Shown here one piece after another: positions 6,222 through 24,390 of a stretch of 32,980 nt of DNA. Origin of the DNA: a virus; the IMG/VR virus record IMGVR_UViG_3300034106_000815, positions 1 to 32,980 of that record; one strand, given 5' to 3'. The notes beneath the pieces are model-generated. The model was not told where the DNA came from, did not search any database, and was given only the letters and a program-made list of their open reading frames with translations. The position numbers and the translations under genes were made by a program. Positions within the stretch are counted from its first letter, which is position 1. The number at the start of each line of letters is the position of its first letter.

Positions 6222-6880
6222 TACGATTCCCTCGCTTTTTCCAGATCCTTGATCGCCCAAGTGTGGTCATGCTTGAACTCAAAGGTTCCGACATGGCCGA
6301 TCTCTTTCGAGACATCATGGTCGATCCAGATTTTAAAGCCAGCATCGCGGGATTTTTTACAGAAGAACACATCTTCGCCGATATAGCCGCGCTTGTCATG
6401 CCGCCAAGGGGTTTCATACCACGGCTCGCCCAAAGCCTTGAAGACTTCAGCCTTAATCATCATCACGCCCATGCCGACTGAGCCAACTTCTTGCAGGCCA
6501 GTGCTTTCTGGCATTGTCCAAACAAGCTCACGATCCCCGTTTTCCTTGTAGATCTGAGCAGTCGGGCCTGTAGGCATACGCCTACGCGCACAGTTCGTAG
6601 CCACGATGTCAAGGTCATGCTTGAGCAGCCGCGAGATCATGTCCTGCGGGAAACGCATGTCGGAATCCACGAACAAGATATGCGAGCAGCCCTCGCGCAT
6701 CGCGTCAAGCGTTAGCTCGGCACGCTGATTGGCAATCAAGGTGCCCTCGGAAATCTTGAGAGATACCGCATCATTCGTGTTGAGTGTGTGATAGCAAACC
6801 ATGTTCACCAAGTCGTAGGTGAACATCGTATGCACCATGTCACGCGCAGGCGTGCAGACCGCGATGTAGTTGGTCTTCAT
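6221..6880 (-). CDS. GT-A type glycosyltransferase-like protein
   Basis: This 219-aa protein has the layout of a family-2-like GT-A glycosyltransferase. The nucleotide-binding half contains CSHILFVDSDMRFP, with D72-S-D74 as the metal-binding DxD. The acceptor half has GYIGEDVFFCKKSRDAGFKI with an acidic E-D pair, ending in DHDVSKEIGHVG. There is no membrane anchor, so it is cytoplasmic. It overlaps both neighbours (ATGA-type at 6880, TAATG at 6221), so it is truly part of the late operon. The substrate is unknown; virion protein, DNA base or host glycan are all possible. Confidence 0.8.
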   Translation of the reverse strand: MKTNYIAVCTPARDMVHTMFTYDLVNMVCYHTLNTNDAVSLKISEGTLIANQRAELTLDAMREGCSHILFVDSDMRFPQDMISRLLKHDLDIVATNCARRRMPTGPTAQIYKENGDRELVWTMPESTGLQEVGSVGMGVMMIKAEVFKALGEPWYETPWRHDKRGYIGEDVFFCKKSRDAGFKIWIDHDVSKEIGHVGTFEFKHDHTWAIKDLEKARES

Positions 6881-13491: not shown

Positions 13492-14928
13492 CTATGCTAC
13501 CCGAGGAATGTTCCGACGCAAAGGCTGATTCCACTTCCCAGCCATGCTAGACCCATACGCCCCAATCACCGCGTCACTTGCAAACGTCAAGCAAAACGCA
13601 TCAGCACGGTCAGGCGATGGCAAACCCCGCTTCCTAATCTCGTCCTTCCCCTCAATCTGTATCTTCCCGCTGCTGGTGAAGCTGTAACGCACCGTCGCCA
13701 GTTCAGCCACCAAGGATTCATCCTTGGGCAACCAGCAGTCACGCGCCTCAAGCCACGCCTTGGCCTTGTGCCAAAGCTCGGCCTTCAGATTCCTATACGT
13801 CGTGCCCATCGCGGGCGACTCGGACACGTTGATGCCGCGAGCCGGCAAACCCAATTCCCGCAACCGATCCACCACGCCAGCGCCCAGGCCAATGCTGTCT
13901 ACCAGAATCTCCCTAGGTTTCTGATTCGGCATCAGCGCCTCATACTCCGCGACAACCGCGCCAGTTAACTGCATCAGGTCAAGATTCTTCCAAGTCTTAA
14001 TCGGCTCAATCACAGCATTGCCCTGACGCTTGCATAGCGCGCTCTTGTCGCTGCCAAACCTCGCAACGTCCAAACCCCACACAATCGGCGCATGTTGGCT
14101 GGCGCTCACATCCCGTGACATCGCCATCTCCAGCAACTCCATCGGTATCACCGTGTCGTCGTCCGACCTCGGGAACTCGCCAAGTACGCGAATCCTGTAA
14201 GCATTGCTCTCCTCGCCGTAACGTACCTTCATCTCATCCAAGTACGCCTTGGACACCCTCGGAGAGTCCTCGCAGCTTACGCGCATCGTCACCCAGTCAC
14301 CCGAGAGGCGGTTATGCGTGTCGTAGAAAAACCCGCTAGACCTCACAGGGTTGCCCAGCAGTAACGTCATCGCGGAATGACCAGACATCGAGCCAGCAGC
14401 AGCCTCGAAAACCTGCTCAGGTATGCCGCTTGCCTCGTCGGCCACCAGCATCACATTCTCGCTATGGACACCTTGCAAGGCCTCGGGCTGCTCGGCTCGG
14501 GATGTCCTGGCAGATATAAACGCCTCGTTATTAGCGTCCTTCATCTCGATGCGGTCCTGCTTGACCTCCAGTTGCTCCGCAAGCAAAGGCGGTAGCACCT
14601 TGCACCAGCGTTTGACCTCCGCGAAAAGCGCGTCATACAACTGGCTGCTCGTCGGTGCCGTTACGACAACCTTCACCGGGAAACGCAAGAACAGATACCA
14701 AATCATCGCCCAGGCGGCAGCGGTTGACTTGCCTACGCCGTGACCACTACGCACACTGATGCGCCTGCTGCCACTGGCAATGTGATTTAGAAACTCAACC
14801 TGCCACTCGTCCGGCTTGGTGTTGAGCACCTCGCGCACGAAGAGTACCGGGTTTGTCTTGTATCGCTTGACGAACTCGACAAAAGGGTTTTGCTCTAGCG
14901 CGATTTCAGAATTTTTTTGGCTGGGCAC
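13492..14928 (-). CDS. terL: Terminase large subunit (TerL)
   Basis: This 478-aa packaging motor has a clear ATPase: Walker A SGHGVGKS at residues 61-68, VVVTAPTSSQ as motif before it couples, and Walker B VMLVADEA at 159-166. The RNase H-fold nuclease has D287 in WGLDVARFGSDKSA, D344 in ILVDSIGLGAGVVDRL and D443 in SPDRADAFCL. It docks on the portal, cuts concatemers and pumps DNA. The start is GTG at 14928; no in-frame ATG occurs before the Walker A motif. The ribosome site is weak, and the leader immediately upstream is an extreme C-rich tract in the RNA. Confidence 0.95.
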   Translation of the reverse strand: MPSQKNSEIALEQNPFVEFVKRYKTNPVLFVREVLNTKPDEWQVEFLNHIASGSRRISVRSGHGVGKSTAAAWAMIWYLFLRFPVKVVVTAPTSSQLYDALFAEVKRWCKVLPPLLAEQLEVKQDRIEMKDANNEAFISARTSRAEQPEALQGVHSENVMLVADEASGIPEQVFEAAAGSMSGHSAMTLLLGNPVRSSGFFYDTHNRLSGDWVTMRVSCEDSPRVSKAYLDEMKVRYGEESNAYRIRVLGEFPRSDDDTVIPMELLEMAMSRDVSASQHAPIVWGLDVARFGSDKSALCKRQGNAVIEPIKTWKNLDLMQLTGAVVAEYEALMPNQKPREILVDSIGLGAGVVDRLRELGLPARGINVSESPAMGTTYRNLKAELWHKAKAWLEARDCWLPKDESLVAELATVRYSFTSSGKIQIEGKDEIRKRGLPSPDRADAFCLTFASDAVIGAYGSSMAGKWNQPLRRNIPRVA

Positions 14929-15277
14929 TTTTTACCGCGATGGGGAGTGGGGGGGGAGGGGTAAGCGATTATGGTGCAGGATTATGCGGTTTCGGTCGGC
15001 GTTTGGCTACGCCACCGTCGCCCCCGTCGCCTCGCGGCCCGGGGGGGGGGATCTGCGCGTACCGAGCCAGCGAGGCCGGTTGCCAGCGCGTCCTGCGCGT
15101 GCTGTGGACAAGTCGGCGCGTCTGCGCGGCTGCGCGTACTCTCCTAAGTTGTTGATTTCATTGGTTACTTACACCTAGCTTACAGAATGCAGTTCGCACG
15201 ATCTCCATTATGTTAAGTCGATCAGCGTTTGCGCGTACCGTTTTGCCTGTTTTTTGTGCAGCGCGAGCGTGAAATGC
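14929..15277. other. Non-coding GC-rich region between terS and terL; candidate origin or cos/pac site
   Basis: No believable gene lies in these 349 bases. They hold a G-rich tract at 14942-14961 (GGGG-AGT-G8-A-GGGG) able to form a quadruplex, a ten-G run at 15041-15050 after CCC, and six perfect GCGCGT words at 15055, 15086, 15095, 15116, 15132 and 15231, three of them within TGCGCGTAC. A DnaA-like TGTGGACAA sits at 15103, and an AT-richer patch at about 15143-15185. Position beside terS suits a packaging site; the DnaA sites suit an origin. Confidence 0.5.
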
Positions 15278-15727
15278 TCATTCTGTGGATAACCTTGGTA
15301 TCGCATCTGTGGATAAGTCCTCGATGACCTCGACATGTCGCAGCGCCGCGAGGCGCATGTCCTGAACGTTAAGCGTAATCTGCGGTGCTTTTTGCACGCC
15401 ATATAGCTTTTGGTTCCATCGTTCGGCTATCCACTGCCGCGCCTGGATCTGTAGCCGCGCCTTCGCCGCCTGCTCCGGCTCGGAGCTATCCGCGATCTCT
15501 AGCGCCTGCATTGCGTAGCTCGTCGCAGCCTTCGCACGCGCACGGGCGATTTTAGTCTCATCTGGATCAACTTCGTCAAACCACGCTTGCAGCGGCCTTC
15601 GGCCCACGCCGATCTCGTAGCATATCTGCGAGATTGTTTTACCGTCCTCAATCATGGCCCAGATCATTTCCTCTGGCATTGACTGAAGCGCCTCAAGATC
15701 GGACTTGTATTTTGGCCTTCCAGGCAT
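15278..15727 (-). CDS. terS: Terminase small subunit (TerS)
   Basis: This 149-aa protein begins MPGRPKYKSDLEALQSM and has a helix-turn-helix at about residues 28-50 (GKTISQICYEIGVGRRPLQA), followed by long helices (ARARAKAATSYAMQALEIAD; ARLQIQARQWIAERWNQKLY). This is the usual plan of phage terminase small subunits, which bind the packaging site and hand DNA to TerL. GGAGG precedes the ATG. The last twelve residues (LSTDAIPRLSTE) are written by two TTATCCACAGA repeats, which are perfect DnaA boxes. It lies upstream of terL with a 349-bp gap, unusually large for a ter pair. Confidence 0.88.
   Translation of the reverse strand: MPGRPKYKSDLEALQSMPEEMIWAMIEDGKTISQICYEIGVGRRPLQAWFDEVDPDETKIARARAKAATSYAMQALEIADSSEPEQAAKARLQIQARQWIAERWNQKLYGVQKAPQITLNVQDMRLAALRHVEVIEDLSTDAIPRLSTE
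15284..15316 (-). promoter_or_regulatory. Two perfect DnaA boxes inside the 3' end of terS
   Basis: On the minus strand TTATCCACA occurs at 15316-15308 and again at 15292-15284, in the same orientation 24 bp apart; both continue GA. This is the full consensus box for DnaA. A one-mismatch TTGTCCACA lies at 15111-15103. They probably mark a place where the host initiator binds. Confidence 0.65.
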
Positions 15728-16638: not shown

Positions 16639-18717
16639 CTAAAAGGACTGCTCATCGACCTTAACGGCATCCTCTATCCACACCCACTCGTTATCAATCC
16701 TAACATTTAATGGCCTTCCTTTTTCACTCCTGACCCTTCTCCAAGCCGACCTAAACGCCTCATCGCCCTCCTCATCAGTGCCCATTTTTTGAGCAAAAAC
16801 AGCCCTCCACTGGTCAAGCCTGACGCATTTTCTGGTTCCAGCAGAAACCTTCCAATGTGTACCTTTAGTATTAATCGCCTCACTTAGCGCATCTACTGCT
16901 ATTGCCTGATTTCGACCCTTCCCTGACCTGTTCAGGGCTTCCTTTTTGGCATCACTCATGCCTGAGCGTACTGATTCATCGCTCGGCTGGACGGCTAAAG
17001 ACTTGCGTCCTTCGTCAAGGCTAAGGCTTGGCTTGCCTTCGTCCTCGATGTCGATTTCGACCATCTCGAACCCAAATCTCAGGCCATCCTCGCCGTCCTT
17101 TTGCTTTGAAACCGTCAAAACGCCTCGCGGCTGATCCTCAAAACGGATCAATTCAAGCTCTGTATCGACGGCTCCGAGCAGGCTGGAATGGCCCCGCAGA
17201 CCCTTTGCTGCATCCTTTCCAGAGTGGTGGATGACCATCAGCGCGGCCTCGAATTCCTCCTGCAAGTAGCCGCATGACGTAATGAAAGCTCCCATGTCCT
17301 CGCTGGAATTCTCATTTCCACCGCCAAATGCTCTGGCTAAGGTATCGATAACGATCAAGTCCACCTTGATCTTTATGGCATCGTTTAGCTCCTTGATGGC
17401 AACTGACAGGCTGGCTATGTCCTCCGCGCTGCTTCTAAGGTTGATCTGGTGGCGTACAAAGTAGATCGGGATGCCTCCCTCGATGTTGTGGTGGATGCGG
17501 CAGGCTTTAATCCGCGCCCCTATGCCGCCGTGGCCTTCGCCAGCGATGTAGATGACCGCTCCGTTGTCCGATGGCTTCGCCTGATGCCCAAACCACTGGG
17601 CCTCGCGGGCAATCGCTGCCGCGATGTCCAGGGCTATGAATGACTTAAATGATCCTGGGGGACCGTACAGCGCTACGAAACCATTTCTAGGGATAACCTT
17701 ATCGACAAGCCACTCGACAGGCTCATCCCTGATTTCGTCCCATGCTTCGAGCGTGATGGCTCTACGCTGCGCCTTTTGCTTCGCATCTGGCGCTTCTGGT
17801 GCCTTTGGCGTTGCTTGGGTTTGCTCTGCCGGCGTAGCCGGCATTGCTGCCTCTGGTGGCTTTTCCTTGAGGCGCTCTGGCGTCCTGATCTCCTGCTCCG
17901 AGGTGATTGGGGCTTGCCCCTTGACCAGATCGGCGAGATCCTGCCGCGTCTTGCCTTGCAGGTGTATCCACTCATAGGCATCGTCGCCCAGGTCATCGCC
18001 ACCCAGGTCGATGATCCTGACCGACTTGGCTACCGGCAGAATCTTGGCTGCTGCCTTCCTGGCGTACTTCCAGCCGGGCTGATCGTTGTCCGGGAGGATG
18101 ACAACATTGGCCCCTGCGAAGTATTGCGTGATAGCCTCCGGCCATGAGCCGCTGCCGGCGTGGGACGTTGTGGCGACTGAGCCGAGCGAGATGATCGCGT
18201 CTGCCGCCTTCTCGCCTTCCGTCAGATAGACGTAACGTCCCTTGGAGATCGCGTCGAGCAGCTCGGGCAGCTTGTACGGGACGATCCTCGCGTCACCCAT
18301 TGCCGCGTGTCTGCGGCCTGCCTCGTCCACCTTGATGAGCTTGTAGTCCTTGCCTTTGCTGTCCGTTGTCCTATACCGCTGCTTGATGAATAGGACTACG
18401 CCTTCCTCGTCGGTGTAGTTCCACTCATGCTCAAGCTGCCGGCTTGCCACCATCGGCTTGATGAGCGACAAGGGTTCGGGCCTTTGCTCTAGCTCGGGCA
18501 GCATTCCTCTCTCGCGCATCACGTTAAAGACGGTTCCCTGATCGCATCCACCGTGACAGTGGAAGAGAGGTTTCCCGTCTGTGCCATCACTGATTGACAG
18601 TGACGGGTTCTTGTCTCCATTGCCTCTGCCATGCCCTGGCACTGGGCAGGAGGCGAGCCATTGCCCGTTGACCTTCTTGGCGTTGCCCAGGGTTTTTGCT
18701 ATTTCTTCGGCTTGCAT
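16639..18717 (-). CDS. Bifunctional primase-helicase with RepA-like ATPase
   Basis: This 692-aa protein starts at the ATG at 18717 (MQAEEIAKTLGNAKKVNGQW), after TAAGG. A longer TTG start would lie beyond the preceding terminator and is rejected. Residues 20-62 form a CHC2-like zinc finger (C24, H29, C54, C58 in FHCHGGCDQG). A TOPRIM domain follows (E167 in LTEGEKAAD; D210/D212 in ILPDNDQPG). A Pro/Ala linker (about 285-320) leads to a RepA/RecA-type ATPase with Walker A GPPGSFKS at 352-359, LIVIDTL at 454-460 and VIHHSGKD near 495. A C-terminal helical domain may bind DNA. It primes and unwinds phage DNA. Confidence 0.9.
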   Translation of the reverse strand: MQAEEIAKTLGNAKKVNGQWLASCPVPGHGRGNGDKNPSLSISDGTDGKPLFHCHGGCDQGTVFNVMRERGMLPELEQRPEPLSLIKPMVASRQLEHEWNYTDEEGVVLFIKQRYRTTDSKGKDYKLIKVDEAGRRHAAMGDARIVPYKLPELLDAISKGRYVYLTEGEKAADAIISLGSVATTSHAGSGSWPEAITQYFAGANVVILPDNDQPGWKYARKAAAKILPVAKSVRIIDLGGDDLGDDAYEWIHLQGKTRQDLADLVKGQAPITSEQEIRTPERLKEKPPEAAMPATPAEQTQATPKAPEAPDAKQKAQRRAITLEAWDEIRDEPVEWLVDKVIPRNGFVALYGPPGSFKSFIALDIAAAIAREAQWFGHQAKPSDNGAVIYIAGEGHGGIGARIKACRIHHNIEGGIPIYFVRHQINLRSSAEDIASLSVAIKELNDAIKIKVDLIVIDTLARAFGGGNENSSEDMGAFITSCGYLQEEFEAALMVIHHSGKDAAKGLRGHSSLLGAVDTELELIRFEDQPRGVLTVSKQKDGEDGLRFGFEMVEIDIEDEGKPSLSLDEGRKSLAVQPSDESVRSGMSDAKKEALNRSGKGRNQAIAVDALSEAINTKGTHWKVSAGTRKCVRLDQWRAVFAQKMGTDEEGDEAFRSAWRRVRSEKGRPLNVRIDNEWVWIEDAVKVDEQSF

Positions 18718-18741
18718 TTGAGCCTTACTTTTTTCAGAGTC

Positions 18742-18768
18742 AAAAAAACCGGGACCAACTGGCCCCGG
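18742..18768 (-). terminator. Intrinsic terminator between SSB and primase-helicase
   Basis: The minus-strand RNA forms CCGGGGCC-AGUU-GGUCCCGG, an eight-pair stem with one G-U, followed by seven U residues. It ends 24 bases before the primase ATG with no promoter between, so the primase must rely on read-through or antitermination. Confidence 0.88.
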
Positions 18769-18786
18769 CCTCCTCAAGACTTAACG

Positions 18787-22988: not shown

Positions 22989-23231
22989 ATGACCACTTAC
23001 GCGCAGCAAGCGATTTCTGAAATAAAGGACAAGGCCGAGGCGGCAGGCTTTCGCATGTCCGATGTGTGCCGCGTTGCGGAGATCGATCAGGCGCAGGTCA
23101 GCCGCTGGCATGGCGGCATCACCGAGCCGCTCTACGGGTCCGTACGACGGCTGGAGGATGCAGTTAATGCCCTCGTAGCCGCTCGCCTCAAGAAGATGTC
23201 TGAAAGCCTAGAAATAGCCGGCAAGGCATGA
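22989..23231 (+). CDS. HTH transcriptional regulator
   Basis: This 80-aa protein has a helix-turn-helix at about residues 20-45 (FRMSDVCRVAEIDQAQVSRW), of the Cro/C1 type by the A-x-I-D-x-x-Q-x-SRW recognition helix. The flanks are helical (AQQAISEIKDKAEAAG; RRLEDAVNALVAARLKK). It is probably a dimeric repressor or switch protein controlling its own palindromic operator and perhaps the divergent early promoter. No integrase is present in the window, so this does not by itself indicate lysogeny. It overlaps the next gene by ATGA. Confidence 0.8.
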   Translation: MTTYAQQAISEIKDKAEAAGFRMSDVCRVAEIDQAQVSRWHGGITEPLYGSVRRLEDAVNALVAARLKKMSESLEIAGKA

Positions 23232-23692
23232 AAACCATCGGCATCGACATTGGCCTTGACGGCGCAATCGCGCTGATCGAAAACGGCGATCTCTTAGAAG
23301 TCCACGACATGCCCACCGTGACGCTGGAGCGCAACAACAAGTCAAAGCGTATGGTCAATGCCGCCGAGCTGGCCCGCCTTATCAGGCAGGCAGCACCCGG
23401 CTGCGCGTACCTAGAGCGACTTAACGCGATGCCAGGGCAGGGCGTAACGTCAATGTTCTCGATGGGCCAGAGCCTGGGCGTTGTCCTTGGGATACTCGCA
23501 GCCCTCGACATTCCGACAACGACGATCCCGCCTCGTACATGGCAGCGCGCTTTGGATGTGCCGCAAGGCAAGGACGGCTCGCGCTATCGCGCTGCGCAGC
23601 TTTTCCCGGCGCACGCTGAACTGTTCAAGCGCGTCAAGGACAACGGGCGCAGCGATTCCGCGCTGATCGCCGCCTACGGTGCCCGCCAATGA
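23228..23692 (+). CDS. RuvC-like Holliday junction resolvase
   Basis: This 154-aa protein has an RNase H fold with D7 in MKTIGIDIGLDGAIALIENG, E63 in AYLERLNAMPGQG, and D143 in GRSDSALIAAYGAR. The MPGQGVTSMFSMGQSLGVV segment and the IPTTTIPPRTWQRAL strand-helix are typical of RuvC-type phage resolvases. It should cut branched DNA before packaging, linking it to the minus-strand nuclease and SSB. It overlaps both neighbours by four bases. Confidence 0.87.
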   Translation: MKTIGIDIGLDGAIALIENGDLLEVHDMPTVTLERNNKSKRMVNAAELARLIRQAAPGCAYLERLNAMPGQGVTSMFSMGQSLGVVLGILAALDIPTTTIPPRTWQRALDVPQGKDGSRYRAAQLFPAHAELFKRVKDNGRSDSALIAAYGARQ

Positions 23693-24390
23693 AGTGGGAT
23701 AGCCTCGACCCGTTCCCGCATCTGGTGATTGACGGGTTCATGGATGAGCAGCAGGCTCTGCAACTGTCCAGCGACTTCCCAGACTTCGATTCACCGATCT
23801 GGCATTCATACGATAACGCCATCGAGGTGAAGAAGACCTGCAACAACTGGCACCACTTCTCGCCTGACCTGTACAGGTTTTTCTATGACATGAACTCGCT
23901 TGAGTGCATCTTGCCTTTTGAGGCTCTGACGAATGGCAGGCTATTCCCAGACTACGGCCTTCACGGTGCCGGCCTACACATTCACGGCTCTGGCGGTAAG
24001 CTAAACCCGCATCTGGACTACAGCATCCATCCTAAGATCAAGCTGGAGCGCCGACTCAATCTCATCGTGTACCTTAACCCCGACTGGCAGGAGTCGTGGG
24101 GCGGCTCGCTGGGGCTGTGGCGCGATGACAATGGCAAGCCCGGCGAGCTGGTGAAATCAATCGCGCCGCTGTTTAATCGCGCTGTGATCTTCGACACGAC
24201 AAACGCTTGGCATGGACTGCCTGAGCCTGTAGCGTGCCCTGTAGGACAGCACCGCAAGTCCTTGGCGGTTTACTTCCTGTGCGATCCGAGAGAAGGCGCT
24301 GCCTCGCGTAACCGCGCTCTGTTTGCGCCGACTGCGGAGCAGGCCGGTGATGGCGAGGTGATGGCGCTGATTGAGAGGCGGGCGCGTTAA
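23689..24390 (+). CDS. 2-oxoglutarate/Fe(II)-dependent oxygenase (prolyl-hydroxylase-like)
   Basis: This 233-aa protein carries the full iron and 2-oxoglutarate site: H108-x-D110 in LNPHLDYSIHP, H175 in NAWHGLPEPV, and R189 in HRKSLAVYFL. The jelly-roll strands RRLNLIVYLNPDWQESWGGS and NRAVIFDT fit prolyl-4-hydroxylase-like enzymes. Its substrate could be a protein, a nucleotide or a glycan; the genes beside it do not decide. Its stop shares TTAA with the stop of the convergent 246-aa gene, so the two transcripts overlap at their ends. Confidence 0.87.
   Translation: MKWDSLDPFPHLVIDGFMDEQQALQLSSDFPDFDSPIWHSYDNAIEVKKTCNNWHHFSPDLYRFFYDMNSLECILPFEALTNGRLFPDYGLHGAGLHIHGSGGKLNPHLDYSIHPKIKLERRLNLIVYLNPDWQESWGGSLGLWRDDNGKPGELVKSIAPLFNRAVIFDTTNAWHGLPEPVACPVGQHRKSLAVYFLCDPREGAASRNRALFAPTAEQAGDGEVMALIERRAR

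Follow-up and report, generated by a model that had tools for sequence, protein, structure and literature searches.

The window analysed here is the whole 32,980-base viral record IMGVR_UViG_3300034106_000815, which comes from a tailed phage. It encodes an SU10-type capsid, portal, scaffold, Sf6-type small terminase and large terminase, together with a helicase-primase (16639-18777), a Cas4-like exonuclease and a Holliday junction resolvase. No DNA polymerase domain was found among the window ORFs scanned with Pfam. The small terminase subunit is a 149 aa protein encoded by terS (15278..15727, - strand; PHROG phrog_1482, E=2e-15; Pfam Sf6_terminase, E=2e-14), and the large subunit is encoded by terL (13492..14928, - strand; PHROG phrog_2, E=2.1e-46). 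At the junction of these genes lies a composite DNA element, here called the module, which overlaps the final 13 codons of terS and has terL as its downstream neighbour. In two near-complete relatives the gene order of the window is circularly permuted, and each has one module. Elsewhere in the window, a small + strand operon (22989-24390) runs opposite in direction to the other genes and contains a possible CII-like regulator, a RuvC-like resolvase and a 2OG-Fe(II) oxygenase.

The most visible feature of the module is a pair of perfect DnaA boxes, which an earlier note had placed in the last codons of terS. Both were confirmed: TTATCCACA is found at 15308..15316 and at 15284..15292 (- strand), 24 bp apart from start to start, at positions -98 and -74 counted from the first base of the XerD arm described below. 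They are in frame and encode the LST of LSTD and of LSTE, respectively, so that the terS tail reads ...EDLSTDAIPRLSTE-stop. A third DnaA-type box, listed in the same note as a near-match, is TTGTCCACA at 15103..15111 (- strand, +107). In first-order Markov shuffles, perfect boxes occurred at a mean of 0.12 per window and none of 400 shuffled windows held two within 30 bp; the box pair is therefore not due to chance.

The DNA of these codons, rather than the peptide, is under selection. In the window, TTA, TCC and ACA account for 5%, 11% and 20% of their codon families, and TTATCCACA would therefore be expected for about 0.1% of L-S-T tripeptides. Among 56 distinct TerS proteins, however, 67 of the 82 L/I-S/T-T tripeptides in the tail were spelled TTATCCACA and a further 11 were spelled TTGTCCACA. 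Relatives that kept the peptide while varying its DNA would have spoken against binding sites, and comparison of terS 3' ends showed that the DNA is not free to vary. Moreover, in divergent relatives terS stops earlier or has another tail and the boxes lie outside the gene; where it stops earlier, the boxes hold their position and the peptide is lost. The TerS-tail peptide thus follows the DNA and not the reverse, which bears out the idea that a coding tail has been shaped by binding sites. A DNA-level module explains a gene tail with codons dictated in this way. The boxes do lie within terS here, but they belong to a larger array that is elsewhere partly or wholly outside the gene, and in this respect the view of them as a feature of the terS tail was too narrow.

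The array is organised around a putative 28-bp Xer site (15191-15218), AGTTCGCACGA-TCTCCA-TTATGTTAAGT, which had been missed on first reading. It comprises a XerC arm, AGTTCGCACGA (15191..15201, + strand), a 6-bp central region, TCTCCA (15202..15207, + strand), and a XerD arm, TTATGTTAAGT (15208..15218, + strand). Read on the terS strand, the element is ACTTAACATAA-N6-TCGTGCGAACT and it is present in all close relatives. Two 11-bp arms around a 6-bp centre are the layout of dif, psi and pdif-type sites, and with a broader dif matrix a single site stands out in the window, scoring 25.5 bits and starting at 15191 (next best 10.0; best of six shuffles 12.0). The strongest evidence that the 28-bp element is an Xer site comes from a matrix for which only host-family dif sites, with 28 distinct XerC arms, were used. 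On 21 phage clusters selected by TerS similarity, and not by boxes or XerC arms, this matrix gave a mean of +8.3 bits at spacer 6, whereas every other spacer from 0 to 30 scored about -6 to -25 bits. A transcription promoter had also been considered for TTAACATAAT; no properly spaced -35 element was seen by eye and the spacer test favoured a Xer arm. In one clade, the L068/L074 relatives, the XerC arm is poor (ATGTAACGATT).

The arms resemble putative dif sites of Comamonadaceae. A genome scan for such arms found GATTCGCACGA-TGTATA-TTATGTTAAGT as a single copy in Limnohabitans sp. Jir72, a freshwater betaproteobacterium. The window's XerD arm is identical to the one in this putative dif, as in many dif sites of the family, and its XerC arm matches GATTCGCACGA at 9/11 positions, giving agreement at 20/22 arm positions with a presumed host. 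Other phage clades have arms resembling Rhodoferax-like arms (for comparison, PMC2731167). In a survey of 200 host-family genomes, 48 yielded a putative dif, one per genome; the XerC arms are those typical of the family, in agreement with the published Rhodoferax dif (PMC2731167).

The centres, by contrast, differ between phage and host. Comamonadaceae chromosomal dif sites (Limnohabitans, Rhodoferax) have the centre TGTATA, and the DnaA array belongs to the phage. Among 55 phage clusters there are 22 types of centre, and the plasmid-type form NNNCCA, to which TCTCCA in the window belongs, predominates; the XerD-side triplet is CCA or TCA in 49/55 clusters and TGTATA occurs in none. The host survey pattern admitted only TNTANA centres, and the published table, made without that limit, also supports the contrast.

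These differences bear on whether the phage enters host dif through XerCD. IMEX phages (CTXphi, VGJphi and TLCphi, and the tailless NO16-like phages) use host XerCD in this way via a dif-like site (PMC5357621, PMC9966536). Such a lifestyle would fit the likeness between the phage arms and host dif, and some relatives with the centre TGTCCA share TGT beside the XerC arm with host dif. However, the window's TCTCCA is unlike TGTATA on either side, and a search of 84,980 species genomes, a collection from which near relatives may be missing, yielded no member of the TerS family. Where a host-family dif was found (48/200 genomes), it was in single copy. Owing to the centre mismatch and the missing TerS family, integration at dif is disfavoured and we consider it highly improbable.

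Around the Xer arms, the flanking motifs keep their distances. In the 21 TerS-derived clusters a box lies at -97..-99 in 14/21 and at -74..-76 in 15/21. In this set, the 2,310 bp upstream of the arm contain 37 perfect boxes, and the remaining 144,254 bp contain 9. Box density in the 110 bp before the arm is 257-fold that elsewhere, a DnaA box cluster such as origins possess. Across 60 clusters, picked for at least 2 boxes with one search fixing the -19 box and not the other positions, boxes lie at -99/-98, -75/-74, -60 and -19 from the XerD arm. When TGTGGATAA-N-TTAACATAAT was sought in viral contigs with a free gap of 4-34, the gap was 12 in 56 of 69 non-identical loci. Spacers are only ~31-34% identical between clusters, and so distance rather than sequence is kept, although the fixed spacing could be partly inherited. 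The window's clade is without the -60 and -19 boxes; the window itself has those at -98 and -74, the weaker box at +107 and an IHF site.

This last site lies on the XerC side, where an IHF consensus, AATCAACAACTTA (WATCAANNNNTTR), is found at +61 (15145..15157, - strand). It occurs in 13/21 clusters, in 12 of them exactly at +61 and in one at +72, against 0.055 in shuffles. The same side carries two TGTAAG direct repeats 11 bp apart (15168..15184, - strand), which are partly conserved, and the DnaA boxes are found mainly on the XerD side.

The earlier note had called host-dependent initiation with DnaA plausible. The DnaA-type boxes, the selection on their DNA and the reading of terS into them are supported. 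The spacing, however, is referenced to the Xer site and the locus has no GC-skew switch; initiation is now one of two or three possible readings. As a DnaA-dependent origin beside a Xer site, the module would have DnaA bind the array, IHF bend the DNA and the AT-richer stretch over the Xer site open. The phage helicase-primase (16639-18777) or host DnaB would then be loaded, and the Xer site would only resolve replication dimers. AT content has a local maximum of 61-67% at 0..+60 and drops to 24-38% beyond +90; this AT-richer 60 bp next to the boxes and the presence of the IHF site both keep the origin reading alive. The phage also has its helicase-primase and no DNA polymerase domain among the ORFs scanned. 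On the other hand, no GC-skew switch is present at the locus and neither a 13-mer nor a DnaA-trio unwinding element was recognised at the module. Nor would an origin beside a Xer site require the box-to-Xer distance to be as constant between lineages as it is (~1 bp). A pure origin is, on balance, rather unlikely, but it is a serious rival to the reading preferred below.

E. coli oriC and DARS1 have DnaA boxes with IHF in common with the module, and boxes facing each other at 14-15 bp are shared with DARS1. They differ in that the phage boxes are locked to a Xer site and no unwinding element was recognised. The likeness raises the question of a DnaA-titrating or -recycling element of the datA/DARS type, which would alter the host initiation cycle. 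Clustered boxes with IHF would suit this role, as would the facing pair -75>/-60< (15 bp), which resembles the facing boxes of E. coli DARS1 (14 bp). The third box, however, is spaced at +56 here and at +26 in DARS1, the -60 box is missing from the window's clade, and the Xer site with its fixed distance would be left unexplained. Such an element is therefore very unlikely.

Between the module and terL, C/G runs are found at 15019-15050 and 14949-14956, with a hairpin-forming block. The block, CCCCCCCCCCGGGCCGCGAGGCGACGGGGGCG (15019..15050, - strand), is a possible packaging-terminus signal. A run of at least 6 C/G is present at +30..+330 in 20/21 clusters and upstream in 0/21. The 357-bp terminal repeat of Sinorhizobium phage phiM5 closes with a comparable block immediately ahead of terL, and for this reason the C/G block may mark the packaging terminus. 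The entire module could in principle be a packaging signal (pac or a terminal-repeat end), in which DnaA/IHF-like motifs and the C-run mark the terminase start. Its place between terS and terL, the conservation of the C-run block and the phiM5 parallel agree with this. Its core, however, scores as a Xer site, and related phages carry the module in opposite orientations with respect to terS and terL. We hold this reading of the whole module to be most improbable; the C-run itself may be a packaging signal.

The module was found in many freshwater phages without a recombinase of their own. It adjoins terS in several lineages with different or unrelated TerS and different TerL, and it occurs in both orientations relative to terS, even among phages with TerL ~75% identical to that of the window. 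All 18 of the module-bearing records searched with Pfam were without PF00589, PF00239 and PF13614 (tyrosine integrase, serine resolvase and ParA). Conversely, three of four relatives without the Xer site have their own recombinase, a resolvase in MW202879 and an integrase in MW202496 and phiM5; the fourth, MW202711, has neither. In phage L027 (MW202879.1), which has a TerL 69% identical and no Xer site, a gamma-delta type resolvase gene is found near terS (966-1634); here one resolution system has apparently taken the place of the other.

In some other tailed phages (L167, L174, L203, C72C1) a dif-like site lies near terL but is not accompanied by DnaA boxes. In C72C1, with a TerL 46% identical, a Xer site of 24.6 bits lies between terS and terL. 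The boxes are thus not needed everywhere and the Xer site is more widespread than the DnaA array. Box-free dif-like sites with CGCATAA arms were seen near terL in L167, L174, L185, L189, L203, L204, L216 and L222, with TerL 56-66% identical, which suggests that tailed phages may use host Xer more widely. Relatives with a second TerS family (MW202722, Salmonella phage MS2 LVA) had no Xer site near terS. DNA similarity search gave no full module match in cultured phages or plasmids; with a 154-bp module query, ~40 bp over the Xer site matched Acinetobacter plasmids, and the one fetched carries a pdif-type site.

Several further loci were noted. Contig IMGVR_UViG_3300011116_000225 (69,407 bases; L086, L097) holds two different related phage genomes head to tail, with two terS copies 35,016 bp apart. 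It was considered as a Xer heterodimer and rejected: both 8.4-kb module surroundings are identical to single-genome contigs, so the contig join is not at the module. Terminal repeats were considered as a cause of contig ends: ends of TerS contigs number 20 within 500 bp past terS against ~4 per 500 bp farther, with no sharp edge. A small family (L414, L389, L411, L363, L408) has the form TGTGGATAA-N6-GCTTAACATAA-TTTGGA-..ATGGG.., with a fixed 6-bp gap and a second half unlike a Xer arm. The 66-kb contig of an unrelated phage (L455) has several copies of TTAACATAATG among DnaA boxes and CTCAACGAGAG-like repeats, clustered in one short stretch around TTAACATAAT repeats.

Taken together, the terS/terL junction probably carries a host-factor module, in which XerCD would monomerise or circularise the phage genome, and DnaA and IHF would shape the complex or start replication. 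Its core would be a plasmid-type XerC/XerD site, flanked beyond the XerD arm by DnaA boxes at fixed distances and beyond the XerC arm by an IHF site. Host XerCD, standing in for the integrase or resolvase absent from module phages, would recombine two copies of the phage site in multimers or terminally redundant DNA and yield monomeric circular genomes. By folding the flanks, DnaA and IHF would form a complex that licenses or orients recombination and that may also initiate replication at the module. From the sequence the model takes its architecture, fixed geometry, selection on DNA, arm match to host dif and lack of a phage recombinase; that the proteins bind, that the sites recombine and what the reaction is for are what we infer beyond this. 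More tentatively, DnaA could be an accessory protein of the Xer system, acting from -99, -75, -60 and -19 with IHF at +61 to build the synaptic complex. This role is placed somewhat above that of a pure origin because an origin does not need box-to-Xer-arm spacing kept to ~1 bp. The accessory and origin roles of DnaA may also be combined. To our knowledge, no Xer system is governed by a replication initiator.

One of the closest known counterparts is psi of pSC101 (GGTGCGCGCAA-GATCCA-TTATGTTAAAC, at 6783 of NC_002056.1). Like the phage site, psi has two 11-bp Xer arms and a 6-bp NNNCCA centre and depends on host XerCD. Both psi and cer (ColE1) use PepA with ArcA or ArgR (PMC5357621), whereas the phage module has DnaA boxes and an IHF site, and its carriers are tailed phages. 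Where psi/cer-type sites have their accessory sequence, next to the XerC arm, the phage module carries the IHF consensus and the TGTAAG repeats; most of its DnaA boxes are found beyond the XerD arm. The pdif sites of Acinetobacter plasmids have similar arms and an NNNCCA centre (ACTTCGTATAA-CGCCCA-TTATGTTAAAT in NZ_CP062922.1) and are linked to the phage module by BLAST. Mobile gene modules are flanked by several copies of pdif (PMC6449649, PMC13141974), unlike the phage sites, which are single, next to terminase genes and accompanied by a DnaA array. IMEX phages are filamentous or tailless and integrate at dif, whereas the module phages are tailed, no prophage was found and their centre is unlike host dif. 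In P1, site-specific recombination by loxP-Cre would circularise or monomerise the phage genome. Like the module, loxP is found near packaging genes, but P1 brings its own recombinase where the module would use a host enzyme.

Among open-licence articles, none was found that describes a DnaA/Xer module or a psi-type site in a tailed phage. The parts are known, namely Xer sites on plasmids and filamentous phages, DnaA boxes and IHF; their fusion into a spaced module in tailed phages, as predicted here, appears unreported in that literature. Host XerCD use by phages has so far been described for filamentous and tailless phages integrating at dif. The tailed phages of the present group, which have neither integrase nor resolvase, are predicted to carry a plasmid-type Xer site at fixed spacing from binding sites of the host initiator. 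The resemblance of the Xer arms to host dif could aid host assignment of metagenomic phages. If the model is true, it would explain how monomeric circles are made without the phage's own enzymes, and recombination and replication control would meet in one ~250-bp element. An accessory role of DnaA, if true, would couple phage genome monomerisation to the replication state of host and phage.
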